From Oscillospiraceae bacterium (lineage in GTDB: Bacteria > Bacillota > Clostridia > Oscillospirales > Ruminococcaceae): DNA of 64,000 nucleotides. The stretch is from assembly GCA_024404915.1 (NCBI GenBank), contig JAKSPJ010000007.1:1-64000 (forward strand). Reading direction: 5' to 3'. The notes below the pieces were generated by a model that was given only the letters and a program-made list of their open reading frames with translations, had not been told where the DNA came from and ran no database searches. Position numbers and translations under genes: made by a program. Positions 6,500 to 41,398 of this stretch are shown here, one piece after another (positions within the stretch are counted from its first letter, which is position 1; the number at the start of each line of letters is the position of its first letter).

Positions 6500-6526
6500 C
6501 CAGATGCTTCTCAGCATCCGGAACTG

Positions 6527-9284: not shown

Positions 9285-9307
9285 ATGCAGGCCTCCTTAC
9301 TGTGCAT

Positions 9308-9664: not shown

Positions 9665-9694
9665 GGGAACCTCCTTCACAATGCAAACATAGAA

Positions 9695-9727
9695 AAGGGG
9701 AGAAGTACATGTTGTCCCTCTCCCCTT
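9695..9727 (-). terminator. Hairpin terminator after rpmF
   Basis: Nine-base perfect stem AAGGGGAGA/TCTCCCCTT with a 15-base loop, followed on the minus strand by TTCTATG. The T-tract is short. Confidence 0.55.
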
Positions 9728-9755
9728 CAGCAATACGCATGTTGCTATTGAACGA

Positions 9756-9941: not shown

Positions 9942-9982
9942 TGTCGGCACCTCCTTGTTTTAAATTGCGTAATTTCGACAAC

Positions 9983-10483: not shown

Positions 10484-10539
10484 TCTAAAGAACCTGCCTT
10501 TCGGATAAGCGACGTTTTCACGCATAGCATTACAGAATG

Positions 10540-10568
10540 ATTATACCAAAAACGCAGCATTTTGTCAA
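10540..10568 (-). promoter_or_regulatory. Consensus promoter of yceD-rpmF
   Basis: TTGACA (10568-10563), 17-base spacer, TATAAT (10545-10540), minus strand; both hexamers are perfect. Confidence 0.88.
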
Positions 10569-10608
10569 TTGCTTCAGGAAATATGCGGCAATTTGACTAA
10601 ATTTTCAA

Positions 10609-11028
10609 TTAGTCAGCCTGCGGAATCAGGTATTTGAGCACAGACTCCGGCAGAGCCTCTTTATCCTCAGAAATGGTAATTACCATATGAACGTCATCAC
10701 CGGCCAGAATAGCAAGCTTTTCCAGCAATGCGCCCAGAGCATCATAGTTTCTGCCGCCGATTTTCAGAATGCCGTCAATGAAGACTTCCTTGATATCGTA
10801 GTTGCCAGCAAGAACGCCTGCAACAAAGCCGTAGAGCATATCGAAGCCCTCGATGGTGTAACGCTCTGCATCCACCAGACGAACCTTATGGTTTACGCTG
10901 TAGGTCAGCTTCATGCATTTCTCAATGCAGATGATATCACCTGTAGATGCCTTTACTGCATCATCAATCATGCCAAGCAGAATCTTGGTCTTTCCGGATC
11001 CTTTTTTTCCTGTAATTACCTGAATCAT
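10609..11028 (-). CDS. Small P-loop ATP-binding protein of unknown function
   Basis: 139 residues beginning MIQVITGKKGSGKTK, with a Walker A motif at residues 7-14. A hydrophobic strand ending in Asp (EVFIDGILK, about 85-93) may serve as Walker B. It is too short for a complete known ATPase subfamily. Similar short proteins in Clostridia are usually left as hypothetical. Its stop overlaps a small inverted repeat (GACTAA/TTAGTC, 10595-10614). It follows pgi by 66 bases on the same strand, with no terminator between that I can see. Confidence 0.75.
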   Translation of the reverse strand: MIQVITGKKGSGKTKILLGMIDDAVKASTGDIICIEKCMKLTYSVNHKVRLVDAERYTIEGFDMLYGFVAGVLAGNYDIKEVFIDGILKIGGRNYDALGALLEKLAILAGDDVHMVITISEDKEALPESVLKYLIPQAD

Positions 11029-11094
11029 AGTTCATTCTCCCTTCAACATTTCAGTTTTAAAACACATTCCAGCTCATTGCGGCATATGAAACGA

Positions 11095-12432
11095 TCAGCC
11101 GTTCAGCTTTGCCTCCAATGCAGCCTTCATATCCTCATAGCCAGGCTTGCCGAGCAGCGCAAACATATTCTTCTTGTAGCTCTCAACGCCCGGCTGATTG
11201 AACGGATTGACGCCCAGCATATAGCCGGATACTGCGCATGCCTTTTCAAAGAAGTAAATCAGCCAGCCAAGAGACTCTTCCTTGGTATCATCCATCTCCA
11301 GAACAATATTCGGAACGCCGCCCTCTGTATGTGCCAGAATGGTGCCTTCCAGTGCACGGCGGTTTACAACGCTCATGTTCTGCTCTGTCAGGAAGTTCAG
11401 GCCGTCAGCATTCTCTGCATCCGGTTCCAGATACAAATCCTGCTTCGGTGTCTTGATATCAATGACGGTTTCAAACATCAGTCTGGAACCATCCTGAATA
11501 TACTGACCCATGGAGTGGAGGTCGGTGGAGAAAATTGCGGAGGACGGGAACAGGCCCTTGTTGTCCTTACCCTCGGATTCGCCGAAGAGCTGCTTATACC
11601 ACTCGTTCATCATTGTGAAGGAAGGATCGTAGCTGACAACCATTTCCACAGCCTTGCCCTTGCGGTAGAAAATGTTGCGAAGTGCTGCGTACTGATAGCA
11701 CTCGTTCTCCTCGAAAGGTGCGCAGTATGCATCCTGTGCAGCCTTTGCGCCTGCCATCAGCTTTGCAATATCGCAGCCTGCAGCGGCAATCGGCAGCAGA
11801 CCAACTGCTGTGAGAACAGAGAAACGGCCGCCCACATCATCCGGAATAACGAAAGTCTCATAACCCTCGGCATCTGCAAGATTTTTCAGTGTGCCCCGTG
11901 CCTTGTCAGTTGTGCAGTAGATGCGCTTCTTAGCTTCATCCTTGCCGTACTTGTCTTCCAGCAGCTTCTTGAAAATACGGAAAGCCAGTGCCGGCTCTGT
12001 GGTAGTACCGGATTTGGAAATCACGTTTACTGCAATATCTCTGCCTTCGCAGATGGAGAGCACCTCATTCAGATATGTCGGGGAAATGTTGTTTCCGACA
12101 TAGTAGATGTCAGGGGTATCCTTCTTCATATTGTTGTAGAACGGGGACTTCAGCAGTTCAATTGCTGCACGTGCGCCCAGATAGGAACCGCCGATACCAA
12201 TAACGATCAGAATGTCAGCCTGTTCCTTGATACGAAGCGCAGCAGCCTGAATACGGGCAAACTCCTCTTTGTCATAATCTGTCGGCAATGTCAGCCAGCC
12301 GAGAAAATCATTTCCCAGGCCGCTCTTCTCATGCAGTACCTTTGCAGCAGCTTCTGCCTGTACTGCGATACCCTTCATTTCCTCATCACCGAGGAAGCTT
12401 TTCAAATAGCTTTTATTCAGCTTTAAAGCCAT
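11095..12432 (-). CDS. pgi: Glucose-6-phosphate isomerase
   Basis: 445 residues, the short Firmicute form. It interconverts glucose 6-phosphate and fructose 6-phosphate. Visible motifs are [18 protein letters not shown] (phosphate site), [10 protein letters not shown], the PGI signature [13 protein letters not shown], and near the C terminus a Lys in the segment [16 protein letters not shown]. It is read from its own promoter at 12537-12565 through a leader of about 100 bases, behind a GGAGG site. Confidence 0.98.
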
Positions 12433-12536
12433 GTGTCTTTTTCCTCCACAATTCTTAAACTAGCACCGTCATTTCACGATACTGTGGATGTCAGATGAGA
12501 TTTCCAAAATGGCATATCCGACACCTATACAATCAT

Positions 12537-12565
12537 ATTTTACTATAATTTTGCAATTATTGCAA
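12537..12565 (-). promoter_or_regulatory. Probable promoter of pgi
   Basis: TTGCAA (12565-12560), 17-base spacer, TAAAAT (12542-12537) on the minus strand. No gene is seen between 12433 and 12632. Confidence 0.6.
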
Positions 12566-12632
12566 GTGATTCTCACCTTTTTTGGCAATAAAGCTAAAAT
12601 TAAGGGTCAACTTTCAGCATATTGTCTATATC

Positions 12633-13316
12633 TTATGTGGAATTTTCAGCAGATTTCTTTCGGGGAACCACTGCGCAAACTGCTGCGGCAGTCACGGCTG
12701 CGGCTCCCTGCTGCCGCAGCAAAGCGGCACACTGCTGCATGGTCCATCCGGTTGTCAATATGTCATCCACAAGAAGGATATGCTCCTGCTTCAGCAGCTT
12801 TCCCGTGGCATAAAACCTTCCTGCATACGCCCTGCGCTCCTTCGCAGACAGCTGATGCTGCCGAACACTGCCGTAATGTTCCTCCAGAATATCTGTGTAC
12901 AGCGGCACCTGAAGATTCTCTGCAATGATGCGGCCAAGTATTTCGGTATGGGAATAACCCTGCCATATTCTTCTGCGCTTCGCCATCGGCACACAGACAA
13001 CGGCATCCACAGACAGCTTTTTCATACGAATTTCTTCCGCCAGCAGCCGTCCTGCATAGGCCGCAAAATTCCGATGTCCATCCTTCAGGGAAAGCACGCC
13101 ATTTTTGGCTGTGTCCAGATAGGGAAACAGCACTGCACCTGTTTCCCAGGCTTTTTCCTGTACTGTCCCCCTCCACATTGCAAAGGAAATCCGCATACGC
13201 TCCAGCGATTCTGTGCAGCCGCTGCACAGGCAGGCATCAAAGGCTATCCGTTTGCCGCAGCAGTCACAAACATTCGGATAGCACAAATCCAGAATCCATG
13301 CCTTCAGTCGGTTCAT
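12633..13316 (-). CDS. comF: ComF family protein (phosphoribosyltransferase fold)
   Basis: 227 residues. An N-terminal zinc finger (CDCCG about 17-21, then CxxC with CSGC) is followed by a type I phosphoribosyltransferase domain with the PRPP motif ILLVDDILTTGWTM (about 178-191). ComF is needed for DNA uptake in transformable bacteria, where it works with the ComFA helicase; many non-transformable species keep it. Its ATG overlaps the recD2 stop by four bases (ATGA), so the two are translationally coupled. Confidence 0.93.
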   Translation of the reverse strand: MNRLKAWILDLCYPNVCDCCGKRIAFDACLCSGCTESLERMRISFAMWRGTVQEKAWETGAVLFPYLDTAKNGVLSLKDGHRNFAAYAGRLLAEEIRMKKLSVDAVVCVPMAKRRRIWQGYSHTEILGRIIAENLQVPLYTDILEEHYGSVRQHQLSAKERRAYAGRFYATGKLLKQEHILLVDDILTTGWTMQQCAALLRQQGAAAVTAAAVCAVVPRKKSAENST

Positions 13317-15532
13317 ATTTCTTCTTCCTCACGGGACGCTGTATTTTCCAGCATATCTGTCAGGCAGGAATACCGCAGTGCCCGCTGCTGATTGTAAATC
13401 ATTTCTGCCATTTTGCGTGGTGCTCCAATGATAATCAGCAGATGTTTCGCACGGGTGACTGCCGTATATAACAAACTGCGGTAACTCAGCCGGTCTGTTC
13501 CCTCTCCCAGCATCAGAATCACTGCCTCGAACTCACTTCCCTGGCTTTTATGCACCGTCACCGCATATGACAATTCCAGCTGGTCTACCTGTTCCTTGGT
13601 ATATTTCACAATGCGTCCTTCGTAGTCCACCAACAGCTGATTTGTATTTTTATCCACCCACTTCACCGTTCCGATATCGCCGTTGAAAACGCCTGTCCCC
13701 CGAATGCCGTCCTTTGTCCATTCCATGTCATACTGGTTCATTGTCTGCATGACCTTATCCCCCTCACGGAATGTATACAGCAGATTTTTCAGAACCATCT
13801 TTCCATATTGGGGTGGATTCACGGCTTCCTGCAGCATCTGGTTCAGCGTCACCACGCCCAGTATTCCTTTCTTCGTGGGTGAGATCACCTGTATGTCCGT
13901 CTGGGGCGTATACTGAAACGCCTGCGGCAGTCTCTTCACATATAAATCCCGCAGCAATTCCATGGCTTCTCTGGCATCACGGCGGTCAAAGAAAAAGAAG
14001 TCCTTGTGCTTTTCCGTCAAATCAGGCACAATGCCGTTCACAATCTTGTGGGCATTCTGTACGATACCGCTTTCCTGTGCCTGACGGAAAATCTCTGTCA
14101 GACGAACAACCGGTATGCGCTTGGAGGCGATGAGGGAGTGCAGCAGATACCCTGCCCCAACCGAGGGCAGCTGGTCCTCATCACCCACCAGAATCACTCT
14201 TGCAGACAATCGGACTGCACGCAGAAGACATTCAAATAAAAGCACATCCACCATGGAAACCTCATCCACAATGATTACATCTGCTTCCAGGGGGTTCTGC
14301 TCATGATGCTGAAACACCAGACCTTCCTCACCAGCCACCGTTCCCAGCATTCTGTGAATGGTTTTTGCCTCACGGCCTGTCAGTTCTGTCATCCGCTTGG
14401 CGGCACGCCCTGTGGGGGCGGCAAGCAGAATCTTACTGCCTGCTTTTTTGCACAGATGTATCACACTGTTCAATGTGGTTGTTTTGCCTGTACCGGGGCC
14501 GCCCGTCAGAATCATGATGCCCCTGGAAAAAGCGCAGGCAATGGCTTTTTTCTGCTGTTCTGCGTATACCATACCCGTTTCCTGCTCGTCTTCTGCAATG
14601 GCTTTTGTACAGTCAAAATCATGAGGAGATGAAAAGGCAAGCATAGCGGCAATGCGGTCCGCAATAAAGCGCTCCGCAATATAGTATTCTTCCAGATACA
14701 CAAAGTCCCCTTCCGCTGCGGAATAGGCCATCAGCACACGTTCTTCCAAGGCTTCCTGATAGGCCTTCTGAAAGACCTGCACATCCACATTCAGCTCATT
14801 TACAGTCTGATTTTGAAACGCTCCAAACATCATACAGGCATGGCCTTCCAGTGCGTACTGCTCCAGAATCCATTGAAAGCCGGCAATCATCCGTTTCGGG
14901 GAATCCTGCGGAATCTCCATCTGATACGCCATTTTTTCAACCAGGCGAAATTCCACGCCCAGCCTGCACAAACGATAAGGGTTCTCACGAATCATTTCCC
15001 AGGCAGCATGCTCCCATTTCCGATAGGCCTTCATGGCCACCGATGCGGAAATGCCGAAGGCCTGCAGACGGTCCATCAGATTTCGCAGGCCAAAAATCTG
15101 CTGTGCTGCCTCTGAGATTTCCTCGCACTTCTGGGGTGTAATGCCCTTGATGCGGCACAGCTTATCCGGTTCATTTTCAATCACCTGAAAGGTAAATTCG
15201 CCGAATTCCGCCACAATTCTCCTGGCAAGTGCCTTGCCGATGCCCCGTATGACACCGCTGCCCAGATAGCGTTCAATATTAACCACTGTAGAAGGCAGCG
15301 CACGGACACAGCTATCTGCCCGGAACTGATCACCGTATCGGGGGTGACTGACAAATCTGCCCGTCAGCTCCAGTTCCTCTCCCGGCTCAATTTCTCCCAG
15401 TTCCCCCACAATGGTAATGAGGGCATCCTCGGTTTCCAGATCCGCCACAACATAGCCGTTTTCCGCATTATAGAATAATACCTCGTCCACAGTGCCCCGA
15501 ATCCCCTGTGTCATATCCTTTGGATTTTTCAT
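13313..15532 (-). CDS. recD2: RecD2-type ATP-dependent 5'-3' DNA helicase
   Basis: 739 residues, typical of RecD2 proteins that act without RecBC. The N-terminal region (about 1-85) precedes helix-hairpin-helix repeats (about 90-200). The motor has GGPGTGKTT (Walker A, about 341), DEVSMVD (Walker B), VGDEDQLPSVGAG and, near the end, VTVHKSQGSEF and YTAVTRAK. It is implicated in DNA repair and replication-fork processing. It is upstream of, and overlaps, comF. Confidence 0.96.
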   Translation of the reverse strand: MKNPKDMTQGIRGTVDEVLFYNAENGYVVADLETEDALITIVGELGEIEPGEELELTGRFVSHPRYGDQFRADSCVRALPSTVVNIERYLGSGVIRGIGKALARRIVAEFGEFTFQVIENEPDKLCRIKGITPQKCEEISEAAQQIFGLRNLMDRLQAFGISASVAMKAYRKWEHAAWEMIRENPYRLCRLGVEFRLVEKMAYQMEIPQDSPKRMIAGFQWILEQYALEGHACMMFGAFQNQTVNELNVDVQVFQKAYQEALEERVLMAYSAAEGDFVYLEEYYIAERFIADRIAAMLAFSSPHDFDCTKAIAEDEQETGMVYAEQQKKAIACAFSRGIMILTGGPGTGKTTTLNSVIHLCKKAGSKILLAAPTGRAAKRMTELTGREAKTIHRMLGTVAGEEGLVFQHHEQNPLEADVIIVDEVSMVDVLLFECLLRAVRLSARVILVGDEDQLPSVGAGYLLHSLIASKRIPVVRLTEIFRQAQESGIVQNAHKIVNGIVPDLTEKHKDFFFFDRRDAREAMELLRDLYVKRLPQAFQYTPQTDIQVISPTKKGILGVVTLNQMLQEAVNPPQYGKMVLKNLLYTFREGDKVMQTMNQYDMEWTKDGIRGTGVFNGDIGTVKWVDKNTNQLLVDYEGRIVKYTKEQVDQLELSYAVTVHKSQGSEFEAVILMLGEGTDRLSYRSLLYTAVTRAKHLLIIIGAPRKMAEMIYNQQRALRYSCLTDMLENTASREEEEI

Positions 15533-25865: not shown

Positions 25866-25897
25866 AAGAAGCGCCGCTGCATGCGGCGCTTCTTTTT
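25866..25897. terminator. Bidirectional terminator
   Basis: Perfect 12-base stem AAGAAGCGCCGC/GCGGCGCTTCTT followed by T residues on the plus strand and flanked by A/T on the other. It serves the hydrogenase-regulator gene and overlaps the stop of the convergent gene. Confidence 0.85.
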
Positions 25898-27707
25898 ATA
25901 GATCAATGGTATATTCCCAGATGACGCAGTCCCCGTCCTTCAGATGATACGCACCGCATCCCACATCGGGGCGCACGCCGTTGACAGTATACGTCCATCC
26001 GGATAAATCGCCGAAATCAAATTCATACAGGGAGGCAATGCCCCGGACATAGGCGTTATCCGTGATTGCAGCGGAAATGCCGTCTACCTCTATCTGCAGC
26101 GCATAGGTCTTTACTGCATCATAAAGCAAATCCAGTGCCGTATCATTCTCTGCAATGGAAAACGCAGTCAGCGGCATGATTTCGCCATCTGCCGGATAGG
26201 CTTCACTGCCTTCCAGGCCGCATATGACATCGCAGTAGATTGCCATGGTCACTGTACCGCCGCCGTTTTTTTGCTGTCCCTGATAGAACTGCGACGGCGT
26301 TTCAATGCGAATGCAGAGAATGGCGGCCGCCAGAATGCCCCAGCCCCCTGCCAGCGTCAGATATGTTTTGGGACTGCGTTTTTTTCGCAGCCAGCATATG
26401 CCTGTCGAAACCGCAAACAGCACGCCGCTTCCAATCAGCAGCGGCAGCCGATAGGGATGTGCCGCTTTCGGCTGATTTTGTTCGTCAGCGGGCTTTGTAG
26501 TACGCACTTCTGAATCATGGGTGACTGCCGTTGTATCTGCGGTGCTTTCTGTAATAATATGCCCATCCGCCTGAGGAACATCTGTAATCTTAGTATCCGG
26601 AGCTGCCGCTGCTGTATGCACTGTATCATTCGCATGCTCTGAATTCTCCTGTGTTTCCTTCTGAGAATCTGCAGTGCTGACTTGTGTCTGTCTTTGCTTC
26701 GTGGTCTGAGGCCGTTCTGCAGAAACAGGTGCAGTATTCTGCGGAGCTGCCTCCGGAAAAGCTGTCCCGGGGGGCCTGTCATAGAGATACAGCGATTGTT
26801 TTCCGCATTGCAGTAAATCAGCAGCAGTCAGTGCAAGAAAGACCTGCATTGAGGCCATATTGCTGTATTCTCCCTGTAACTGATGTGCATATTGTCCTCC
26901 GCCAATATAAAACTGCTGAATGCCGTCCAGCAATGTGTGCCCCTCTTTTATAAATCGTTCATCCGACAAGGCATCCACGCCCAGGCAGGAAAGTGCAATC
27001 CAGGTTTGTGCAGTGCTCTCTGCATTTTCTGCACCATAGCTGGAATAAGCACCAGAGGAAAGCTGTTTGTCCGATAAAAAGCGGATGCCGTTCTCCGCAG
27101 CGGCTGCAACATTCTGCCGATTGCAGTTTGGTGCAAGAGCCTGTATTGTCATGGCCGTAACATCCGGGTCCCCGCAGCTGCCCATAACAGACCACCCGCC
27201 GTCTCCGCATTGCAGGGAAAGCAGCACATCGGAAACACTCTCCACCGTGTATTTCTGTGAGGGAACACCGTTATTCAGCAGATGCAGCGCAAAAACCCAG
27301 CTCATAATGCCCTGCTGTCCTGCACTGTTGTCCAGCAGTTCAGCGCATACAGCAGGCAATTCCGCAGAGCCCGCCAGCAGAGAAAGAGCAAGACGTTCCC
27401 TGGATACTGCAGAGCGTTCACAGTCAGCGGCAATATATTCCTGCAGTGCGCTGCAGAAAGAGGTGAAATCATATCCCCCCTGGGAAGACAATGCCATACA
27501 GTACCAGTCCGGACTGCTGCTGCCCGCCATGGCAGGCAGTGTGTTCTGAATCCAGCCATTAACATTTCCGCCGCTTTCCATCAAAAGAATTTCATTTGCC
27601 AGTTCCGGAATCTGTCCATCATACGCTTGGGAAGAAAAGGCAGGTTGTAAACCGCCGATGCAGCACACCAGCGAGCAGAAGCCTGCAAGTAATTTTATAT
27701 GTTTCAT
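25896..27707 (-). CDS. Transcobalamin-like surface protein (alpha-barrel plus DUF4430)
   Basis: 603 residues from ATG 27707. A signal peptide of about 25 residues (KLLAGFCSLVCCIGGL) leads to an all-helical region of about 300 residues with prenyltransferase/squalene-cyclase-like repeats; SLQCGDGGWSVMG and LSSGAYSSYGAENAE are typical. A Thr/Gln/Ala-rich linker (about 330-430), two hydrophobic segments (about 435-455 and 463-482) and a C-terminal DUF4430 domain (about 495-603, ending FGDLSGWTYTVNGVRPDVGCGAY) follow. This barrel plus DUF4430 pair is the architecture of mammalian transcobalamin and intrinsic factor. Corrinoid binding is inference. The Shine-Dalgarno site is weak. The upstream promoter is strong and no cobalamin riboswitch is visible. 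Confidence 0.8.
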   Translation of the reverse strand: MKHIKLLAGFCSLVCCIGGLQPAFSSQAYDGQIPELANEILLMESGGNVNGWIQNTLPAMAGSSSPDWYCMALSSQGGYDFTSFCSALQEYIAADCERSAVSRERLALSLLAGSAELPAVCAELLDNSAGQQGIMSWVFALHLLNNGVPSQKYTVESVSDVLLSLQCGDGGWSVMGSCGDPDVTAMTIQALAPNCNRQNVAAAAENGIRFLSDKQLSSGAYSSYGAENAESTAQTWIALSCLGVDALSDERFIKEGHTLLDGIQQFYIGGGQYAHQLQGEYSNMASMQVFLALTAADLLQCGKQSLYLYDRPPGTAFPEAAPQNTAPVSAERPQTTKQRQTQVSTADSQKETQENSEHANDTVHTAAAAPDTKITDVPQADGHIITESTADTTAVTHDSEVRTTKPADEQNQPKAAHPYRLPLLIGSGVLFAVSTGICWLRKKRSPKTYLTLAGGWGILAAAILCIRIETPSQFYQGQQKNGGGTVTMAIYCDVICGLEGSEAYPADGEIMPLTAFSIAENDTALDLLYDAVKTYALQIEVDGISAAITDNAYVRGIASLYEFDFGDLSGWTYTVNGVRPDVGCGAYHLKDGDCVIWEYTIDL

Positions 27708-27768
27708 ATCAGAATCCTGTGCCTCATCATATTTGCAGATGCCGCAGGGGCATTTGCTGTGCCTTGAC

Positions 27769-27797
27769 ATTGTACCATACTGATGTTGATTTGTCAA
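27769..27797 (-). promoter_or_regulatory. Promoter of the transcobalamin-like gene
   Basis: TTGACA (27797-27792), 17-base spacer, TACAAT (27774-27769), minus strand. It lies just past the phage-cluster terminator, so the gene is independent of that cluster. Confidence 0.82.
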
Positions 27798-27803
27798 GCC
27801 GCA

Positions 27804-27847
27804 CAAAAAGCAGAATACCATCTGCACATGCGGCAAATGGTATTCTG
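27804..27847 (-). terminator. Terminator of the phage-like cluster
   Basis: Eleven-base stem CAGAATACCAT/ATGGTATTCTG with a 15-base loop, followed by CTTTTTG on the minus strand, four bases after the last gene. Confidence 0.8.
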
Positions 27848-27851
27848 TCTG

Positions 27852-28769
27852 CTATGGATTGCAAAAGGAATCAAAATAGAAGGTATCCTCCGTAAAAATG
27901 CCCTTTTCATTGCCGCTTACCGCAATTCGGCTGACACGGCCGCTGATTTCACCATTGACCTGTATCAGGTCTTCCAGGTCCTCTCCACAGTACCCCTGAT
28001 AAACAACCGTTTTACTGCGAAGACGGCGGTTGCTGAGGGCAATCCGAAACTGCAGGGCATCCTCCGGGTGATAGAGAAACTGCCGATCCATCTGTATCTG
28101 ACGCACAGACACAATCTCTCTTGCCGCCGCTTCCGGATTATCTGCGGCAAAGCTGCCGTATTCTCCTGCCAGATTTGCCATTTCAATCCGGCTGACAAGA
28201 CCGCTTGTGTCACCGCCGCTGCTTTCCTGAATGATATGATGTGCCGGCAGATTGATTGCTACAGAATCTGTACGGGGCAGCATACAGAGATGATTGCTGT
28301 TTCGTATAAAGGGATATCCGTGATTCAATTTGTAGTTGTATGCCACCACAGAATCCCAGATGCCTGCATGCTCCCTGACATAAATATAGGAGATGGCAGG
28401 CACATCTTCATATGTCAGATGAGGCAGGCGGTAAGCATTCAGCAGATCAGACAGCGTGGTATTCGGGTACAATCCCGGCACAAGCTGATTTCTGGACAAG
28501 CAGCAGGAAAAACTGCGGATCTGCGCCTGCAGAATGTATTGATTCTTTCTTTTCAGAAAAGAATATTTCTGAACGGTTCCATGCATCAGTTCCTGCTGCT
28601 CCAGATAAAAGAAAGCAGAGCAGGGCTGGAAGGAAACATCCTCTGCTGCAAGCTGAATATACAATGTGCTGAAGGGCTGATAGCGTTCCCGTATCAGATG
28701 AAAGCGGATACATTTTTCAAAAGCATGCTGTTCCTGCTGTAGATCCGTCAGTACACAGCGGATATTCAT
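27852..28769 (-). CDS. Phage baseplate/tail hub-like protein (gpD/XkdQ-like)
   Basis: 305 residues, start behind GGAGGG and overlapping the previous stop by four bases. The N-terminal third is beta-rich. The middle (TTLSDLLNAYRLPHLTY, then YIYVREHAGIWDSVVAYNY) and the C-terminal part with DLIQVNGEISGRVSRI resemble the late-control-D / XkdQ group of tail hub proteins. Identification is by pattern only. It is the last gene of the cluster and one of few tail-related genes in it. No tape-measure, sheath or tube gene precedes it. Confidence 0.55.
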   Translation of the reverse strand: MNIRCVLTDLQQEQHAFEKCIRFHLIRERYQPFSTLYIQLAAEDVSFQPCSAFFYLEQQELMHGTVQKYSFLKRKNQYILQAQIRSFSCCLSRNQLVPGLYPNTTLSDLLNAYRLPHLTYEDVPAISYIYVREHAGIWDSVVAYNYKLNHGYPFIRNSNHLCMLPRTDSVAINLPAHHIIQESSGGDTSGLVSRIEMANLAGEYGSFAADNPEAAAREIVSVRQIQMDRQFLYHPEDALQFRIALSNRRLRSKTVVYQGYCGEDLEDLIQVNGEISGRVSRIAVSGNEKGIFTEDTFYFDSFCNP

Positions 28770-29140
28770 AGCTGCATCCCTCCTGAAAATGTTATGGCGA
28801 ATGCCATCACTTCAGAATCCTCTCTGACATCGCAGGTGAAAGACAGAATTTGCATATCTGTAAAAGTCATATCCGCAAAGGCAAACTGAAATGCAGTATG
28901 CTGATGCAAAGCGTTTTTCAGAAATGATAGAATGCTATGCATATCGGGATGCAGTATCTTCCCCTGTACAGTCAGCGTACAGGGATATTCCTCCAGCAGC
29001 GTGATCTGGTGGGAACCATCTGCCAGTGTACGCCTGAGCACCGGTACTTCATTTTTCAGCTGATAGCCCTGTATCGGCAGTGTCAGATACTCAAGCTGAA
29101 TCTGCCGCTGCGGCAGTGTTGGATCCGGGCGTATTTGCAT
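28766..29140 (-). CDS. Small phage structural protein, probably tail/baseplate
   Basis: 124 residues behind the strong site GGAGGAGG. The N terminus overlaps the previous gene by 50 bases, which is real because both genes have good sites and codon use. It is beta-rich, with an ILHPDMHSILSFLKNALHQH helix in the centre and no membrane segment. I cannot name the family. Position between a terminator-like protein and a hub-like protein suggests a small tail or connector component. Confidence 0.5.
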   Translation of the reverse strand: MQIRPDPTLPQRQIQLEYLTLPIQGYQLKNEVPVLRRTLADGSHQITLLEEYPCTLTVQGKILHPDMHSILSFLKNALHQHTAFQFAFADMTFTDMQILSFTCDVREDSEVMAFAITFSGGMQL

Positions 29141-29543
29141 TGGCTTCCTCCTCCGGTGTACAGTACAGCATTCCGCTGAGACAAAGTATACATTCTTCCG
29201 TCATGCGGTCAGTCTGTGCATCGTACCGCTGTCCGATATGCTGCACAGAACGCACATTGCAGTTTTTAGAAATCAGGATATTCAGCAGAATATCCTGTAC
29301 CTGTTCAGAAAACGCATCTATATCCTGTTCCGGTGAGGCATACATGCAAATGCGGAACTGACAGGAAAAGGGTACTGCGAATTGCTTTTGCATTGCAATG
29401 GGCGGATAGTAGTCCGTCTTGTTCTTTGCAACGGTAACAAATCGGGCTTCTGCCGGAATCTCACGGCATTTCCGTGCATACGCCGGAAATGCAGGAATTC
29501 CTGCATTTCTCAGGCGTGAAATCAGTAATTCGGTGAATAGCAT
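29091..29543 (-). CDS. Phage tail-terminator/neck-like protein
   Basis: 150 residues behind GGGAGG. The N-terminal helix LFTELLISRLRNAGIPAF followed by beta strands and an acidic C terminus recalls tail-terminator or minor neck proteins (about 130-150 residues). The position, after the head-tail connector gene, supports this. The overlap with the upstream gene is 22 bases and with the downstream gene 50 bases. The name is a positional inference. Confidence 0.5.
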   Translation of the reverse strand: MLFTELLISRLRNAGIPAFPAYARKCREIPAEARFVTVAKNKTDYYPPIAMQKQFAVPFSCQFRICMYASPEQDIDAFSEQVQDILLNILISKNCNVRSVQHIGQRYDAQTDRMTEECILCLSGMLYCTPEEEANANTPGSNTAAAADSA

Positions 29544-29914
29544 TGTGACCTCCCTTCAGAAAGCACATCAGCGGCTGCAAAGAAAAAAGCATCATCCTTC
29601 AGAAGCGGAGCCGCCTGTTCCCTGCAGCTTTTCAGAATCTCTTCGGCAATGCCGCACTGGTTCACGGCTGCTTTTTGTGCAGCGGCAGAGCCTGCAGATG
29701 TAAGGGAGCAGCTGTTTGCCGCCGTCATGCGACGATACTGCAGATTTGCCATTGCAGCTGCATAATAATACAGCCGTTCATCTTCTGCATCTGCATTGGT
29801 ACGCATCTGTGCAGTCACCGACTGTATTGCCTGGTCCGCCAGAAAGCGATAGGGCGCATCCTCAGAAATCCCGGCAAAATGGCGAAACAGCATGAGAACC
29901 CGTGCAGTCTGCAT
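29522..29914 (-). CDS. Head-tail connector-like protein
   Basis: 130 residues, mostly helical, with an N-terminal MLFRHFAGISEDAPYRFL segment and a Tyr-Tyr-Tyr-Ala helix in the middle, as in DNA-packaging adaptors of the gp6/YqbG size class. The start is behind AAAGGAGG and abuts the protease stop. It is the first gene after the capsid/protease pair. The function is inferred from size, helicity and position. Confidence 0.5.
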   Translation of the reverse strand: MQTARVLMLFRHFAGISEDAPYRFLADQAIQSVTAQMRTNADAEDERLYYYAAAMANLQYRRMTAANSCSLTSAGSAAAQKAAVNQCGIAEEILKSCREQAAPLLKDDAFFFAAADVLSEGRSQCYSPNY

Positions 29915-29915
29915 A

Positions 29916-30812
29916 TCACGCCTCCTTTCGTTCTGCTGTCCGAAAAGCGGTCAGCGATGCTTCTGTATCATGGTATGCAGCGGCAGAAAGCTGCGGCGCA
30001 TTGATATCGCTTTCTGCGGCAGAGAGGGTTTCTTTCAGATGCATCAATCCGCTTGCATCCATATGAATCACCGTATCTGCCAGTGCATCTGCGCAGGCGT
30101 TTTCTCCATTGCGGTAGCACAGGCGAATCACTTCCCTCCGCAGTTCCTCAGTCAGCTGGGAAAGCAGTTCCTCCGTGTGGCATGCCGCAGACCGCAGCGC
30201 CTCCTTTTCTGCATCAAAGCCGCTGCCGCCAAAGGTTTTTACAACACCGGCGGCAGGCTGTGCAGGCACTGCCACAAAGCTCCATTCATAGACATCCGTT
30301 ACGCCGCACAGCGTTGTATAGCATTGCTTCCCGGCATACTTTCTGCCCTTGATATGGGCACAGGGCGTGTGAATCACATTTGCACCACAGACGGAACAGA
30401 TTTTTTCTGACACGGCGCAGGAAATACTGACCTCCTTTTTGATACCTGCATCAATTTCACGAATCAGGTCTGCATTGCTGTCGGTACGAACCATATACGC
30501 ATGAGCTTTCAATGCACAGTAGGCATTTCCGTTCTGTGTCCTGCGGCTTTCATCTCTGATCAGCTCCGTCTGAAAAATCCGTGCAGTCTGGCATGCAGAT
30601 TTGGGGTTGTGGTCAAAAATGCCGGTTACCCCCACAAAACGCTTCTGCAATTCCGCCAGTGCCTCATCAGAGAAGCAGTCTCCGTCACGGTCAGTTTCAT
30701 TGTCGCACAGAATCATGTCAAAAAGATATACTTCCTCCGCAGAGTGTTCTCTGCGTGTAAAACGGTTCAGCTGTTTCAGCAGCTCTCCATTCGGGGCAGA
30801 TGTATTTTCCAT
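29916..30812 (-). CDS. Phage prohead protease / scaffold-type protein (XkdF-like)
   Basis: 298 residues behind AAGGAGGAG. The segment ETDRDGDCFSDEALAELQKR, then VGVTGIFDHNPKS and QTARIF, matches the clostridial prophage proteases annotated as prohead proteases or XkdF-like. A Cys cluster (CSVCG, then TPCAHIKG) and VYEWSFVAVPAQPAAG follow. About 90 C-terminal residues could serve as an internal scaffold. Maturation of the HK97-fold capsid is the expected role. It lies downstream of the capsid gene, whereas the protease usually precedes capsid. Confidence 0.7.
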   Translation of the reverse strand: MENTSAPNGELLKQLNRFTRREHSAEEVYLFDMILCDNETDRDGDCFSDEALAELQKRFVGVTGIFDHNPKSACQTARIFQTELIRDESRRTQNGNAYCALKAHAYMVRTDSNADLIREIDAGIKKEVSISCAVSEKICSVCGANVIHTPCAHIKGRKYAGKQCYTTLCGVTDVYEWSFVAVPAQPAAGVVKTFGGSGFDAEKEALRSAACHTEELLSQLTEELRREVIRLCYRNGENACADALADTVIHMDASGLMHLKETLSAAESDINAPQLSAAAYHDTEASLTAFRTAERKEA

Positions 30813-30842
30813 CAGAACTCCTCCTTTTTATCCGAAAGAACA

Positions 30843-30870
30843 GGGGAAGGAAGCCGCTGCCGCCTTCCCC
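30843..30870 (-). terminator. Hairpin between capsid and protease genes
   Basis: Eight-base stem GGGGAAGG/CCTTCCCC with a 12-base loop, 18 bases after the capsid stop, followed by TGTTCTTT. It may partly terminate or stabilise the capsid mRNA and so lower expression of the genes behind it. Confidence 0.5.
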
Positions 30871-30888
30871 ATGAAATGCATTGCCGTC

Positions 30889-31866
30889 TTATGCGCTGCG
30901 CAGAGACAGTACAGCGGCGGCTCCTGACATCATCGGCTGGAATCCCATGCGCACAGATACTGCAATGCGGTCCAGCTGGCAGTCAATCAGACGGTCGGAT
31001 TCCAGCAGCACATCTGAGCCGGAAATGGCAGCCAGTGCAAAGGGCTTGGAAATGCCGATAATGGTTTTATTGTCCAGAGAAGCATCCTTCAGCAGTTTTG
31101 CGCCAAAGGGCAGACGGATTTGTCCGTGCTGATCCAGCGTGCGGTCATGCATCTGGTTCATGGCAAGAATCTCCGCCACAACGGATGGGGATGCAATCAC
31201 AGTGGTCAGATCATAATCAGAGAATTTGCCGTAGAGTGTCGCCAGGTCACCATATGTGACAGCGGAAGATGCAGAAGAAAAGGGCGTAACGGAATTCCGG
31301 ATAACCCCAAGTGCAGCTTTGGCAATACCCGCTGCAATTTTGCGTCCCACTGCACGGAGAATCACTGCAAGCGCATCCAGACGCTGCTGACGGATTGCCT
31401 CATAGGACGCTGTAACCAATCTGCCGTATTTTGGCAAGTCAATGGCTGCCGATTCCAGAATCGCTGTTTTTTTCAGCAGTGCACCTTCGTTGATTTCCCC
31501 AGAGTACACGCCGTCTGTTTCATCAATGGCGAAGCCCTTGCAGGCAGAAGCAGATGCGCTGGAAACCGTTGCTGTCAGCTCAGAAAGAATCGAATCCTCC
31601 ATACCGCTGCGAACTGCACGCCGCACAAATTCCGGGAAAAGCACAGCACTTTCCGTGGTGGCATAGAATTTTTCCACATGGTCACAGTCTGCGCCGGAAA
31701 TGCGGATATTAAAACGCTTCAGCTGACGCTCATACGCATCCAGGTTGGCCAGTGGTGTACCTGCATATGCAGAAGATGGATCGGCATTTTCCAGTGCCTG
31801 GGTAAAACTGCAGTTAGAGAGATGGTGCATACCTTTTTCCAGTTTGACAGAATTATAAGGATACAT
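30889..31866 (-). CDS. HK97-fold major capsid protein
   Basis: 325 residues from ATG 31866 (AAAGGAAA upstream); a longer in-frame reading would overlap the portal gene. Features are an N-terminal arm, then FYATTESAVLFPEFVRRAVR (about 85-105, the capsid-family motif), a helical spine (AILESAAIDLPKYGRLVTAS) and a C-terminal P-domain strand MGFQPMMSGAAAVLSL. The arm before the motif is short, so a large delta scaffold domain is absent. The frame is open throughout. Confidence 0.78.
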   Translation of the reverse strand: MYPYNSVKLEKGMHHLSNCSFTQALENADPSSAYAGTPLANLDAYERQLKRFNIRISGADCDHVEKFYATTESAVLFPEFVRRAVRSGMEDSILSELTATVSSASASACKGFAIDETDGVYSGEINEGALLKKTAILESAAIDLPKYGRLVTASYEAIRQQRLDALAVILRAVGRKIAAGIAKAALGVIRNSVTPFSSASSAVTYGDLATLYGKFSDYDLTTVIASPSVVAEILAMNQMHDRTLDQHGQIRLPFGAKLLKDASLDNKTIIGISKPFALAAISGSDVLLESDRLIDCQLDRIAVSVRMGFQPMMSGAAAVLSLRSA

Positions 31867-31879
31867 AAGCACTTTCCTT

Positions 31880-33046
31880 TCATGTTGGATTGGCATTTGC
31901 CAATCGCTGTTCAATTTCGGCCGCCTGAGCATTTTTCAGGCGTGCAGCTGCCAGTTCCGTGGCATCCTGCAGGTTAATATGGTCCCACTCCAGCCGTGGG
32001 GAAAGATGGAAACCGCTGCTGCGGAGAACCGCCCTTCCGATTTTCACCAGAACGGGAGACAGAATTCTTCGGAAATATTCCAGTTCCGTAGTCAGGATAT
32101 CTGCCTGCTGTGCAGACATCCGCTCTGTTGCAGACCAGGAAAAGCCCAGCAGAAACGGCGGAATAGATAATTTGGAAATCAGCTGTTCCAGCAGCTGCCG
32201 CACAGGGATATTGGTATCAGACAGCTGATTTTCTGCGCCGATTACCTTAATGCCGATATCCCCTACTGCAACGAAATCCTGAACGATGCCGTTTTCCGCT
32301 GCCAGAATGCCGCTCTGCCATACCCTGGCAATTTCCTGCGCATGTTCCCTGGCATATGCTGCAGAGTTGGCATCCGGCTGATAGGTCACAGCATAGCGAA
32401 CATTTCCGGCACGCTGATAGTTTTTCCCGATGCAGTGAAAAATCTGCATCAGAATACGGGACAGCGCCGGCAGTCCACGAAGAACCGAAACGCCGTAAAC
32501 ACTGTCTGCCGGAGGATTCAGTGCCGCAAACAATATACGCTCCGGATGGTTTAAAGGATAAGCTGTCCCCTCCTCCGATACAAAGGAAAAACCGCACAGG
32601 CCGTCAGAATGCGGCTGAACTTTCAGCACTTCCGGGCGAACGGTCCGCAGCGCAGCCGGATATCCGTTTTCCGTGCAAAGCATTTCCCCTGCAGCATTTC
32701 CATAGGTTAGCAGACTGTCCAGCATCTGGTCAGCGAACAGCTGCAAAGAAACACCGGAACCATTCACAGGCACATGGTCGGCATAGGCATCCAGAATCCG
32801 CTGCGCCTGGGGATTTTCCACAGTGAAATGGAAACCGCCGGTCAGACGGACAATTTTGAGTAACGCCGCATCAATGACAGGCACGGCATATCTCAGGGCA
32901 TCATACAGCCGGTATTCTTCAACAGAGGGAAGCGGCTGGGGCTGCATAGGCAGGGTATCCAGAGGGGCAGGGCGGGCATCGGAGCAGATCAGCGGCATCG
33001 TGCATGGGGCGGAAGTCTTGCGGCGCCGCAAAAATGAAAAATCCAG
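31880..33046 (-). CDS. Phage portal protein, probable CTG start
   Basis: About 388 residues. The portal signatures include AVPVIDAALLKIVRLTGGF near the N terminus, then MLDSLLTYGNAAGEMLC, and in the C-terminal half the segment KLSIPPFLLGFSWSATERMS with QQADILTTELEY. It forms the dodecameric DNA gate of the capsid. No ATG lies near the expected start. GGAGGTGA (33058-33051) sits ideally before a CTG at 33046, giving Met-Asp-Phe-Ser-Phe-Leu-Arg-Arg, a typical portal N terminus. A TTG at 33031 is the alternative, but its spacing to the site (over 20 bases) is poor. Confidence 0.8.
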   Translation of the reverse strand: MDFSFLRRRKTSAPCTMPLICSDARPAPLDTLPMQPQPLPSVEEYRLYDALRYAVPVIDAALLKIVRLTGGFHFTVENPQAQRILDAYADHVPVNGSGVSLQLFADQMLDSLLTYGNAAGEMLCTENGYPAALRTVRPEVLKVQPHSDGLCGFSFVSEEGTAYPLNHPERILFAALNPPADSVYGVSVLRGLPALSRILMQIFHCIGKNYQRAGNVRYAVTYQPDANSAAYAREHAQEIARVWQSGILAAENGIVQDFVAVGDIGIKVIGAENQLSDTNIPVRQLLEQLISKLSIPPFLLGFSWSATERMSAQQADILTTELEYFRRILSPVLVKIGRAVLRSSGFHLSPRLEWDHINLQDATELAAARLKNAQAAEIEQRLANANPT

Positions 33047-33064
33047 AAGATCACCTCCATCAGA

Positions 33065-34330
33065 TCAAAACGCATTTCCTCGTTCCAGAGCGGCAACAAA
33101 GAAATCATCGGGTGTATGGTCAACAATCGTTGCAACAAAATAACGGATATCATCCATAGCGTGGTCATTCTCCTTAATCGGCTGGTCCCTGGGTGATTTC
33201 TCATCCCAGGCATACAGAGAAAATTCACGAATGGCATCTCTGCATTCCGGTGCAATTTTGATTTCGCCGTTCCGCAGGGCATCGGCTGTGCGGTGAATTC
33301 CGTAAAGCACATCATTTTTTGCAGCCTGAACACGATATTCTCCATGGCTGCGGATGCAGGCAATCAGGCTTGCTGCGGAAGGATCAATGACAATTGTTTC
33401 AATTTTCCTGTCACCAATCAGTGCTGTCAACGCCTGATAGTGTTCTTCATCCGTGCGGGTTATGCCGCTGATACGGGAATCATAGTAGCTTTCTGCAATA
33501 CGGTACCAGCAACCACGGCATTCTCCCCAAAGCCCGAAGGAAATCGGATTCACAGTACCGTAATCGCAGGAAACCACATACCGATCCGGTATCTGCGGCG
33601 GAGAAGCAATATGATATTTCTCCTGAAACATGGGATAAACCAGACCCTGTGCCGCAGTCCAGATTCCCTTGACATAGCGGTCATAGAAGGCACCGGAATA
33701 CAGCCGCTGATAACGCTTCCGCACCGCAGGAGAGAGGGCAGGATTATCGTCCATTGTAAAATGCAGATAGAGCGCATGTTTCTCTTTTGCCCTGCAGATC
33801 CATTCCTGATAAAACCAGTGAGCCGGCTTGTCCGGATTACAGGAAAACCATAGTCTGGAACCATTTACAGAGCATCTGGCAATGGCCTGTTCCACAAAGG
33901 AACGCGGCATCAGTGCCACCTCATCCAGCAGTACACCTGTCAGCGTAATGCCCTGTATCAGCGGCGCAGAACTTTCATCCTTTCCGCCGAAAATATAGAA
34001 ATGGTTTGTGTGCCCGGCATAAGAAATAGTCATCATGTTTCTGGAGGGATAATCTGAAACATGAAATCCGTATTGCCGCAGCATTTCACAGAGCGGAACA
34101 ATCAGATTGCGCCTGATATTGGTGCGTGTTTTGCCGCACAGTGCGAAGTAATGTCCCTGAAAGCAAACCGTTGCCCACAGCACGAAGCTGAAAGATAAAA
34201 CGGTTGTCTTTCCGGAACGGACAGCACCATCACAAATCACAGCATCCATCCCGGCAGTATCAGGATTCCGCCACCAGTTCAGAACCTTCAGCTGTTTCGG
34301 CGAAAACGTCTGAATCGGAGTCTGTTTGAT
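33065..34330 (-). CDS. Terminase large subunit (PBSX-type), probable ATC start
   Basis: 421 residues if started at ATC 34330. The motor and nuclease that package DNA: Walker A DGAVRSGKTT, Walker B ITLTGVLLDEVALM, coupling motif WFSCNPDK and nuclease Asp residues in VVSCDYGTVNP and TIVIDPSAA, with a late Asp in ENDHAMDDIRY. The first ATG (34249) would cut off FSPKQLKVLNWW, the conserved N-terminal segment of this family. Upstream of it the only well-placed initiation site is GGAGGTGA (34344-34337) six bases before ATC. The gene overlaps the small-subunit gene by 71 bases. Confidence 0.85.
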   Translation of the reverse strand: MKQTPIQTFSPKQLKVLNWWRNPDTAGMDAVICDGAVRSGKTTVLSFSFVLWATVCFQGHYFALCGKTRTNIRRNLIVPLCEMLRQYGFHVSDYPSRNMMTISYAGHTNHFYIFGGKDESSAPLIQGITLTGVLLDEVALMPRSFVEQAIARCSVNGSRLWFSCNPDKPAHWFYQEWICRAKEKHALYLHFTMDDNPALSPAVRKRYQRLYSGAFYDRYVKGIWTAAQGLVYPMFQEKYHIASPPQIPDRYVVSCDYGTVNPISFGLWGECRGCWYRIAESYYDSRISGITRTDEEHYQALTALIGDRKIETIVIDPSAASLIACIRSHGEYRVQAAKNDVLYGIHRTADALRNGEIKIAPECRDAIREFSLYAWDEKSPRDQPIKENDHAMDDIRYFVATIVDHTPDDFFVAALERGNAF

Positions 34331-34811
34331 GCAGCATCACCTCCTGTTCATTCTGCCCGTTTCCCTGCAGGACAGACAGCAGTGCATCGGACAAATTCAG
34401 ATGTTCTGCCTCTTCCGCCAGTTCCAGCAGTTTTTCCATAGCCGCCAGTCTGTCAGCCAGCTTCACTTCAAATCCGTTGCGGTCATGCCTGATGCTTGTA
34501 ACATGGAACAAATCCAGCTGCGCAATTTCTTCTGCAGTCGGACATTCTGCGAATGCCAGCCGCACCGCATCGTTTGCCGCACCGAAGGCAAGGCGGGAAA
34601 ATCCTGCGGTTACCATTGCTTTGAAGGGAAGGGGCGTCCGTTCCGCCAGAGAGGCAAGATACCTGCGACACCCTGCATCCTGCAAAAGGCGGATGCCCTC
34701 CTGTTCTGCGGAATCGCCTGAATAGCCTGCCCTTTCAGCGGCCTCCCGGATATTCCCCAGCATCAGATAGCGGCAGCAGAAATCACGCTGTCTGCGAGAC
34801 AGCTTTGGCAT
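34260..34811 (-). CDS. Terminase small subunit
   Basis: 183 residues from ATG 34811 (AAAGGTGG nine bases upstream; a TTG nine bases earlier is too close to the site). The N-terminal part reads LSRRQRDFCCRYLMLGNIREAAERAGYSG, the helix-turn-helix of XtmA/Terminase_2 proteins, here cited by its landmarks RQRDFCCRYL and AAERAGYSG. The rest is helical with an acidic tail. It recognises DNA for packaging with the large subunit. It is the first gene of the cluster. Confidence 0.82.
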   Translation of the reverse strand: MPKLSRRQRDFCCRYLMLGNIREAAERAGYSGDSAEQEGIRLLQDAGCRRYLASLAERTPLPFKAMVTAGFSRLAFGAANDAVRLAFAECPTAEEIAQLDLFHVTSIRHDRNGFEVKLADRLAAMEKLLELAEEAEHLNLSDALLSVLQGNGQNEQEVMLHQTDSDSDVFAETAEGSELVAES

Positions 34812-35030
34812 ATTTATCAACCACCTTTCTTTTTAGCGACAGCAGAGGGAGCTTGAAAACAGCTGTCTGCAACTCCTGCATTCAGCGTGATTTTTTGCAC
34901 GTTTCCATGCAAAAGAAAATAGAAAACGTCGGAAGATACAATATTTCGTTTTTATAGGTTTGGTTTTTATGCAAAATGCCGGCAGACAGAAAGATTCCTG
35001 AAAACATCAATTCTTTGTGCGATTTCTTGC
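34812..35030. other. Intergenic region between the phage cluster and the cyclophilin gene
   Basis: There is no gene. An inverted repeat TTTTGCA/TGCAAAA (34893-34914, eight-base centre) lies about 85 bases before terS and could be an operator. I could not find a convincing sigma-A promoter for terS on the minus strand. Confidence 0.5.
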
Positions 35031-39382: not shown

Positions 39383-41128
39383 TTATGCTTCTTCACGAAC
39401 CTGAATATTTGCTTCACGCAGCTGCTGTTCTGTAACCGGGGAAGGTGCGCCCAGCAGCAAATCCTGCGCATTTCCGTTCAGCGGGAATGCAATGACATTA
39501 CGGATGGTCTCTGTATCAGCCAGCAGCATAATCATACGGTCGATACCGGGAGCCATACCTGCATGAGGCGGTGCACCGTACTGGAATGCGGTGTACAGAG
39601 CGGAGAAACGTGCAGCCAGTTCTTCCTCTGTGTAGCCGGCCAGTGCAAATGCCTTTTTCATGATGTCCACGCTGTGATTGCGGACAGCGCCGGAAGCCAG
39701 CTCAATGCCGTTGCAGACCAGGTCATACTGATATGCAAGAATCTCCAGCGGATCCTGATTGTTCAGTGCATCCAGTCCACCCTGAGGCATGGAGAAGGGG
39801 TTATGTGTGAAGTCCAGCTTATGTGTTTCTTCGTTGATTTCATACATGGGGAAATCAACCACGAAGCAGAAACGGAAAGCCTTTTCTTCCAGCAGATTCA
39901 GACGCTCACCCAGCCATGTACGAATCTGGCCGGAATAATTATCCACGCTCTTCGGCTTATCGGAAATAAAGAATACGGTTTCGCCGTCCTTGATGCCGGA
40001 AAGCTGACGGATTTCTGCACGCTGTTCATCGCTGAGGAACTTGTCAATCGGGCCCTTGAAATTGGACTGACCTTCCACAGCGGTCAGATAGCCGAGGCCC
40101 TTCATGCCGATGGAGGTTGCAAATTTCAGGGAATCTTCAAAGAATTTCTTAGAGCATTCTGCACAGTCAGCAACGATGCCTCGTACCGGCTTGCCCTTGA
40201 AAATCGGGAAATCAACATTTGCAAAGAAGTCTGTCAAATCGATAATTTCCAGCGGGTTGCGAAGATCCGGCTTATCTGTACCGTATTTCATCATGGCGTC
40301 ACGATAAGTAATTCTCTCGAAAGGCGCATCAGAGATGGTATAATCCGGAGCGAACTTCTTGAAGGTATCAGAGATAACCTCTTCGCAGACAGCCAGCACT
40401 TCATCCTGTGTAGAGAATGCCATTTCAAAATCCAGCTGATAGAATTCACCCGGAGAACGGTCCTGTCTTGCATCCTCATCACGGAAGCAGGGTGCAATCT
40501 GGTAGTACTTATTGAAACCAGATACCATCAGCAGCTGCTTGAACTGCTGCGGTGCCTGAGGCAGTGCGTAGAATGTGCCCTTATGCTTACGGCTGGGAAC
40601 CAGGAAATCACGGGCGCCCTCCGGAGAAGATGCAGTAAGAATCGGTGTCTGGATATCCAGGAAGCCCAGGTCCTCCATCTTGCGGCGCAGGTATGTAATA
40701 ACCTTGGAACGCAGAATAATATTCTCATGGATTTTCGGGTTTCTCAAATCCAGATAACGGTACTTGAGACGAACCTCTTCACGGGTCTCCAGGGACTCTG
40801 CCGGAATAAAGGGAAGCATGGACTTGGACGGACCAAGCAGTTCCATTTTCTCCACCAGAACTTCCACAAGACCTGTTTCCAGCTTGGTGTCAACGGTGTC
40901 AGCATCACGCTCAATTACCGTTCCTGTTACGGAAATAACGCACTCTCTGCCCACGCCTTTCAGCATGGAATCATCGTGGAAAACGGTCTGTGTAATACCG
41001 GTTTCATCACGAAGTGCCAGAAACAGAACACCACCGTGGTCACGAATGGTATCCACCCAGCCAGCGAGAGAAACGGTCTGACCAATGTGCTCTTTGCGCA
41101 GTGCATTGCACATGACGGTACGATACAT
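39383..41128 (-). CDS. aspS: Aspartyl-tRNA synthetase
   Basis: 581 residues from ATG 41128 (AGGAGG seven bases upstream), the usual bacterial length with an N-terminal OB-fold and the inserted GAD domain. Class II motifs: motif 2 FRDEDARQDRSPGEFYQLDFE and motif 3 GMAPGIDRMIML near the C terminus; EGARDFLVPSR is also typical. It charges tRNA-Asp. The in-frame sequence upstream encodes nothing sensible and contains the T-box leader. The N-terminal RTVMCNALRKEHIGQ segment fits bacterial AspRS. Confidence 0.97.
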   Translation of the reverse strand: MYRTVMCNALRKEHIGQTVSLAGWVDTIRDHGGVLFLALRDETGITQTVFHDDSMLKGVGRECVISVTGTVIERDADTVDTKLETGLVEVLVEKMELLGPSKSMLPFIPAESLETREEVRLKYRYLDLRNPKIHENIILRSKVITYLRRKMEDLGFLDIQTPILTASSPEGARDFLVPSRKHKGTFYALPQAPQQFKQLLMVSGFNKYYQIAPCFRDEDARQDRSPGEFYQLDFEMAFSTQDEVLAVCEEVISDTFKKFAPDYTISDAPFERITYRDAMMKYGTDKPDLRNPLEIIDLTDFFANVDFPIFKGKPVRGIVADCAECSKKFFEDSLKFATSIGMKGLGYLTAVEGQSNFKGPIDKFLSDEQRAEIRQLSGIKDGETVFFISDKPKSVDNYSGQIRTWLGERLNLLEEKAFRFCFVVDFPMYEINEETHKLDFTHNPFSMPQGGLDALNNQDPLEILAYQYDLVCNGIELASGAVRNHSVDIMKKAFALAGYTEEELAARFSALYTAFQYGAPPHAGMAPGIDRMIMLLADTETIRNVIAFPLNGNAQDLLLGAPSPVTEQQLREANIQVREEA

Positions 41129-41157
41129 AAAATAACCTCCTGTCAATATAATGGAAA

Positions 41158-41398
41158 ATAAAAACGTCCCCAAGCAGCCTGTATCATCTGACTGCTTCGG
41201 GACGAGTGTTTCTGATGGAAAACCCGCGGTGCCACCCGAATTAACCTGTATCTGCACAGGTTCTCTTTTATGGGGCGTTTCAATGGGACGCAAATAGAAT
41301 TGCGAGGAGTGTTCCCGATTCTACTACTTTCCGTAACGGCACTTTCAGCCTGCGGCGCCTGTCTCTCTGAACGGATTTCCACAAAGATCGATTCTCCT
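41158..41398 (-). promoter_or_regulatory. T-box leader of aspS
   Basis: The core GGGTGGCACCGCGG on the minus strand (41237-41224) is the T-box antiterminator signature; its TGGC pairs with the GCCA end expected for tRNA-Asp. Downstream, CGTCCCCAAGCAG/CTGCTTCGGGACG followed by T residues (41158-41204) is the terminator. Uncharged tRNA-Asp should stabilise the antiterminator. I could not place the specifier codon with confidence. Confidence 0.93.

Follow-up and report, generated by a model that had tools for sequence, protein, structure and literature searches.

A phage-derived head and packaging operon inherited with the chromosome in Oscillospirales, and its probable role in a gene transfer agent-like particle

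To our knowledge, very few gene transfer agent (GTA) clusters have been described outside the Alphaproteobacteria. Here we analyze a nine-gene operon for phage-type head and DNA-packaging proteins, found in a 64,000-nucleotide stretch of an Oscillospiraceae bacterium (GTDB family Ruminococcaceae; assembly GCA_024404915.1, contig JAKSPJ010000007.1, positions 1 to 64,000; hereafter the window). A study of the fecal virome has reported GTA-like packaging in Ruminococcaceae and Oscillospiraceae and identified an operon for Faecalibacterium only (FpGTA); for Ruminococcus callidus it described packaged fragments of 4.6 kb and reported no Ruminococcus operon (PMC12946183). FpGTA was reported to be near-ubiquitous in its genus and to form small particles with host DNA (PMC12946183). 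We found that the phage-derived head and packaging genes of the window are chromosomally fixed and vertically inherited, and are not a local prophage remnant. They probably encode a domesticated, vertically inherited DNA-packaging particle, GTA-like in kind and descended from a contractile-tailed, PBSX-like phage.

The operon lies on the minus strand at 27852-34820, in the order terS, terL, portal, capsid, protease, g6, g7, g8, hub. An earlier note on this DNA had described nine intact open reading frames (ORFs) in that order, in a single minus-strand operon closed by a terminator; ORF and profile analysis agreed on coordinates and gene list, and the terminator was found as a 15-bp hairpin with a T-run at 27847-27811. 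The features are:

34260..34820, minus strand: terS, small terminase; start ATG 34811 or TTG 34820 (PF03592 Terminase_2, 3e-14; phrog_51, 2e-14)
33065..34249, minus strand: terL, large terminase, PBSX family (TIGR01547, 1.8e-51; phrog_2, 4e-47); frame open upstream to ATC at about 34330
31880..32998, minus strand: portal protein (phrog_30703, 8e-118, and alignment)
30889..31866, minus strand: major capsid protein, HK97 type (PF25209, 5e-11; phrog_3922, 1e-55)
29916..30812, minus strand: predicted head maturation protease (phrog_16951, 7e-91, function unnamed in PHROG; position; conserved H68 and S129)
29522..29914, minus strand: g6, putative head-tail adaptor by position (beside capsid/protease in 114 of 120 loci)
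29091..29543, minus strand: g7, tail terminator family (terminator profile; hhalign)
28766..29140, minus strand: g8, tail-tube or tube-initiator fold (AlphaFold, Foldseek, VIA)
27852..28769, minus strand: baseplate hub, gp27/Mu gp44/VgrG type (AlphaFold, Foldseek, VIA; homologue L058)
27811..27847, minus strand: intrinsic terminator-like hairpin ending the operon, 3' of hub (15-pair stem, then T-run)

Like FpGTA, the window operon comes from Ruminococcaceae and is a domesticated set of head genes (TerS, TerL, portal, capsid) to which no replication or integration genes belong. FpGTA differs in that it includes a scaffold and that a further operon supplies its baseplate, fibre, holin and endolysin (PMC12946183). 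As for such a second operon in the window genus, Baseplate_J was absent from all 30 genomes, the window genome included, while holin and endolysin were not searched for. Moreover, FpGTA particles have been seen by experiment, whereas the window cluster is known from genes alone. In order to place Faecalibacterium in our sample, we used the MAM protein, which marks genus g115 by its MAM genes, and we take g115 to be Faecalibacterium. The window portal profile matched none of four sampled g115 genomes at E<=10, while the same profile matches 127 genomes of the family. FpGTA and the window system are therefore not orthologous, as judged by this portal test alone (the FpGTA proteins themselves were not compared). 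Genera g13, g109 and g127, matched by a Faecalibacterium 16S probe, were rejected as Faecalibacterium and proved to hold other elements. Four species of g127 (L280, L281, L282, L285) carry a second cluster of terS, terL, portal, a gene in the scaffold position, capsid, sheath, tube, GpU, hub, baseplate J and gp48. It has shared neighbours in at least two of the four and a portal unmatched to the window family, and may be another domesticated phage element.

The case for chromosomal inheritance comes from distribution, phylogeny and selection. The capsid gene was present in 28 of 30 same-genus genomes at 61-74% identity, as one full-length copy each except in a few fragmentary assemblies, and the congeners' clusters showed the same gene order with open frames. 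Across the family, the portal occurred in 127 of 298 genomes and 62 of 126 genera, with one locus per genome (two fragments in G036); a class-wide draw of 291 genomes gave no match outside the order. Portal presence was uniform in 58 of the 75 genera sampled more than once; 10,000 shuffles of the labels gave 19.8 on average and never more than 33. Carriage of the cluster goes by genus. For the window genus, a tree built from portal, capsid, protease and hub followed that of the aspartyl-tRNA synthetase AspRS (Mantel r 0.84, with 0 of 5000 permutations as high); 9 of 17 splits were common to both, with no conflict where both had at least 90% support. The earlier note had proposed measuring the ratio of nonsynonymous to synonymous substitution (dN/dS), and this returned purifying selection: pairwise values were 0.01-0.37 in all genes apart from one g7 estimate of 0.62, with capsid and TerL at the low end and g7, g8 and hub at the high end. 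Its suggestion of a domesticated packaging module gained support from the block's presence in 28/30 congeners, the uniformity of 58/75 genera and inheritance with the chromosome. That the cluster is domesticated and under selection seems to us close to certain.

The flanks are ordinary chromosomal genes, as had been claimed: on one side acyl-CoA carboxylase, homoserine O-succinyltransferase, transglutaminase and MoxR-type genes, and on the other peptidyl-prolyl isomerases (PPI), murA, a rhomboid protein, AspRS and primase. Those of 24 congeners are equally ordinary (SecA, tRNA synthetases, dockerin proteins, germination protease) and contained no recurrent integrase, holin or fibre family. Neither in the window flanks nor in those of the 24 congeners did integrase, repressor, replication or lysis genes recur beside the cluster. 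An active prophage carrying the missing tail, lysis and integrase genes elsewhere was not found in the contigs examined. The idea of the same set at the same locus held for the set but not for the locus, since the PPI-PPI-murA site adjoins the cluster only in the window genome and about one third of congeners, the others having different chromosomal neighbours. Given these varied neighbours together with the congruent trees, chromosomal rearrangement around a vertically inherited cluster is the simplest reading. Taken together, several general marks of a GTA were found here: chromosomal fixation, vertical inheritance, no linked integration, replication or repressor genes, purifying selection, and retained active-site residues.

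Both TerL and the protease keep their presumed active-site residues. TerL falls in the PBSX family (TIGR01547, 175.8 bits against a cut-off of 105), and the residues taken as its Walker (ATPase) and nuclease motifs were at least 95% conserved in 36 homologues. The fifth gene was called a protease from its position and from H68 and S129, each at least 95% conserved in 39 homologues. The same protease family (window 29916-30812) shows conserved C132, C139, C142, C151, H153 and C164, a possible metal site that is unusual in a prohead protease. Profile searches gave no family match for g6, PDB sequence searches with capsid and portal returned nothing usable, and PADLOC found no defence system.

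The neck and tail-tip genes qualify the earlier description of the block as having no tail. Sheath, tape measure, baseplate wedge and fibre are indeed missing from the window-genus locus, but a terminator (g7), a tube fold (g8) and a true hub remain. The terminator profile of related clusters matched the congeners' g7 at values down to 4e-25, and hhalign paired g7 with the tail terminators of these clusters over 132 columns (85%, E 7e-6); by profile, then, g7 is homologous to them. The AlphaFold model of g8 (predicted local distance difference test, pLDDT, 89.7) matched a diffocin baseplate chain in Foldseek (3e-5), and in VIA the Pam3 baseplate (Z 11.0, 109 aligned, root-mean-square deviation (rmsd) 3.8) and Hcp (Z 11.1). 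Its assigned role rests on fold, because hhalign gave no match to the tube family of relatives and only a weak, full-length match to their GpU family. The hub, present in one copy in the window genome, was modelled with pLDDT 95.5 and matched 3d37 in Foldseek (4e-17); across Foldseek and VIA (Z 23.0, 279 aligned, rmsd 3.3 A) it matches the phage Mu gp44, MuSo2 and VgrG-type hubs, and its homologue in L058 matches phrog_177 baseplate hub. Because g7, g8 and the gp27/VgrG-type hub are retained, the operon stands for a head plus minimal neck and tail-tip parts rather than a wholly tail-less structure. The predicted particle of the window genus would consist of a head, adaptor, terminator, one tube-fold protein and hub.

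When 120 loci, many of them from named organisms, were swept with hidden Markov models, they formed a graded series of architectures, every one of which retained the head and packaging genes. At one end stand Merdimmobilis hominis and Anaerotruncus colihominis, whose clusters read terS-terL-portal-protease-capsid-adaptor-neck-terminator-sheath-tube-GpU-hub-baseplate J-gp48-fibre. Profile matches in L058 confirmed baseplate J, gp48, sheath and hub, and a gp25-like wedge was found in L079/L100; none of these clusters had a tape-measure-sized ORF between tube and hub. Further loci lacked the sheath, and then the tube as well. In 16 loci (among them L116:14036-14872, L131, L082, L101, L094 and L113), the terminator continued in frame into a fibre C-terminal domain, and the sheath, tube, hub and baseplate genes that would lie between the two were absent. 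The window genus and four related genera form one branch, in which capsid and protease have swapped places to give the order portal-capsid-protease and only g7, g8 and hub are left of the tail. On balance we favour, with some reserve, an ancient GTA-like family restricted to the order Oscillospirales and separate from FpGTA by portal. Its tail would have been dismantled stepwise (tape measure, sheath, tube, baseplate). The end product would be a DNA-filled head with a fibre domain fused to the neck ring or, in the window genus, a head that keeps one tube ring and the hub.

Since the DNA pump, the shell and its closure are all retained, DNA packaging would be the selected function. PBSX-family terminases fit headful packaging of host DNA. 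We propose that TerL fills the procapsid with host DNA through the portal, that the protease matures the shell, and that the neck closure is made up of adaptor, terminator, tube ring and hub. Expressing cells would then release particles with short random chromosomal fragments, a GTA-like function. The locus has no baseplate, fibre or lysis genes, so release and uptake would have to draw on genes at other sites or on the host's own lysis and DNA-uptake functions. We regard packaging of host DNA by the particle as quite likely, and are evenly divided over its transferring genes between cells.

The likeness to PBSX lies in a PBSX-family TerL, vertical inheritance, and relatives of the cluster with a PBSX-like contractile tail. 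PBSX of Bacillus has sheath, tube, tape measure, baseplate, fibre and lysis genes and a repressor, whereas the window-genus locus has of this set one tube-fold protein and the hub only. With RcGTA of Rhodobacter and other alphaproteobacterial GTAs, the cluster shares long chromosomal conservation, purifying selection and intact head and packaging genes. The tail of RcGTA is complete and siphovirus-like, tape measure included, and RcGTA also has dedicated regulators. Sequence comparison with it was limited to the capsid Pfam family, which is also found in Caulobacter (control).

Several points weigh against this interpretation. About half of the family's genera have no portal, and the cluster is gone or decayed in some lineages. 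In particular, the cluster of L048 (G056, 6400-13750) has a split terL, and its capsid, portal and protease frames are shortened; the portals of sister species in that genus are full-length. In the window genome itself, the TerL start codon is non-canonical. For the window genus no lysis or receptor-binding gene is known (holin and endolysin were not searched for), and we infer particle production, random packaging and transfer from genes alone. Finally, the window cluster family is a candidate source of the unexplained 4.6-kb packaging in R. callidus, but membership of the window species in R. callidus or its genus is not established.

Among other explanations, a packaging machine used for something other than transfer, for instance to export DNA for biofilms or as a nutrient, to break down the genome at lysis, or for storage, would agree with the clearly conserved DNA pump and with the lack of a known receptor-binding or lysis gene in the window genus's version. 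The retained terminator-tube-hub, together with the fibre domain fused to the terminator in a sister group, points instead to a delivery end, and we consider such a use unlikely. A PBSX-like killing particle or tailocin, in which killing competitors is the selected function and DNA packaging secondary, is suggested by the PBSX-family TerL and by the sheath, hub, baseplate and fibre kept in Merdimmobilis and Anaerotruncus. Tailocins, however, keep the tail and lose head and terminase. This family kept head and packaging genes while discarding sheath, tube, baseplate and finally the hub, and the window genus, with most tail genes lost, lacks sheath and baseplate genes at the locus and shows no Baseplate_J in any of its 30 genomes; a killing function is thus improbable. 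A head with connector and terminase and almost no tail is also the gene set expected of capsid-forming phage-inducible chromosomal islands (cf-PICIs), satellites whose own small head packs their own DNA and which borrow tails from a helper phage. These are mobile elements with integrase and replication genes, whereas the window locus is fixed, single-copy and vertically inherited. Neither those genes nor the sporadic distribution of cf-PICIs was seen for the window cluster, no integrase, primase or regulator adjoins it in the genus, it keeps its own terminator, tube protein and hub, and relatives have full baseplates, which makes a satellite quite improbable. Least probable is a decaying prophage whose head genes survived by chance after loss of the rest, an option raised in the earlier note: missing integrase, repressor, replication and lysis genes, the broken frames in L048 and the odd TerL start speak for it, but the same gene set in 28/30 congeners, genus-level presence, tree congruence, strong purifying selection and conserved catalytic residues speak against it, and a decayed prophage fits only as the distant origin of the cluster.

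Some gene starts in the operon were corrected. Strong ribosome sites, claimed for all genes, precede the protease, g6, g7, g8 and hub genes but not every other gene. The most likely capsid start is 31866, revised from 31932: AAAGG stands before the ATG at this site, and a protein begun there lines up with its homologues. TerL, as annotated from ATG 34249, is about 27 residues shorter than its homologues. The homologous start position at about 34330, 9 nt after AGGAGG, reads ATC and not ATG or GTG, the first ATG lying 27 codons downstream; the window TerL may use a rare start, have lost its ATG, or reflect an assembly error.

Around the operon, the gene at 25896-27836 encodes a secreted protein that combines terpene-cyclase-like repeats with a DUF4430 domain. 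It begins inside the operon terminator, has its own promoter-like site at 27797-27769, and was not found beside the cluster in congeners. At about nine loci (including L026:9676-10215, L032:8874-9326 and L033:5670-6146), a MazF-like growth-inhibitor gene adjoins terS in divergent orientation. In most congeners AspRS is present as two paralogues that share about 42% identity, and the window AspRS copy (39383-41293) is overlapped by a 635-aa antisense ORF.

Relatives of the cluster are also filed in viral databases. IMG/VR holds at least 341 relatives of the portal family; the 80 contigs examined (L141-L220) hold either the module by itself or the module together with flanking DNA that does not belong to it. 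In INPHARED, five unannotated fecal contigs were the only relatives closer than a 28% Microcystis-phage match. In one of these five, MT835508.1 (L267, 4800-45750), an INPHARED 'Bacteriophage sp.' record from human feces, the module is surrounded by bacterial chromosome, with an rnf operon, ribosomal proteins, rpoA and secY. This record is either misfiled or represents host DNA recovered in a virome. A study of DNase-treated virus-like particles from Mexican children has been published (PMC8361208), and MT835508 is not tied to that study.

In summary, hundreds of public 'viral' contigs match host-encoded, vertically inherited modules. The graded tail series lets one ask what minimum of a tail a DNA-delivering particle needs, and the family offers a specific candidate for GTA-like packaging in other Oscillospirales.

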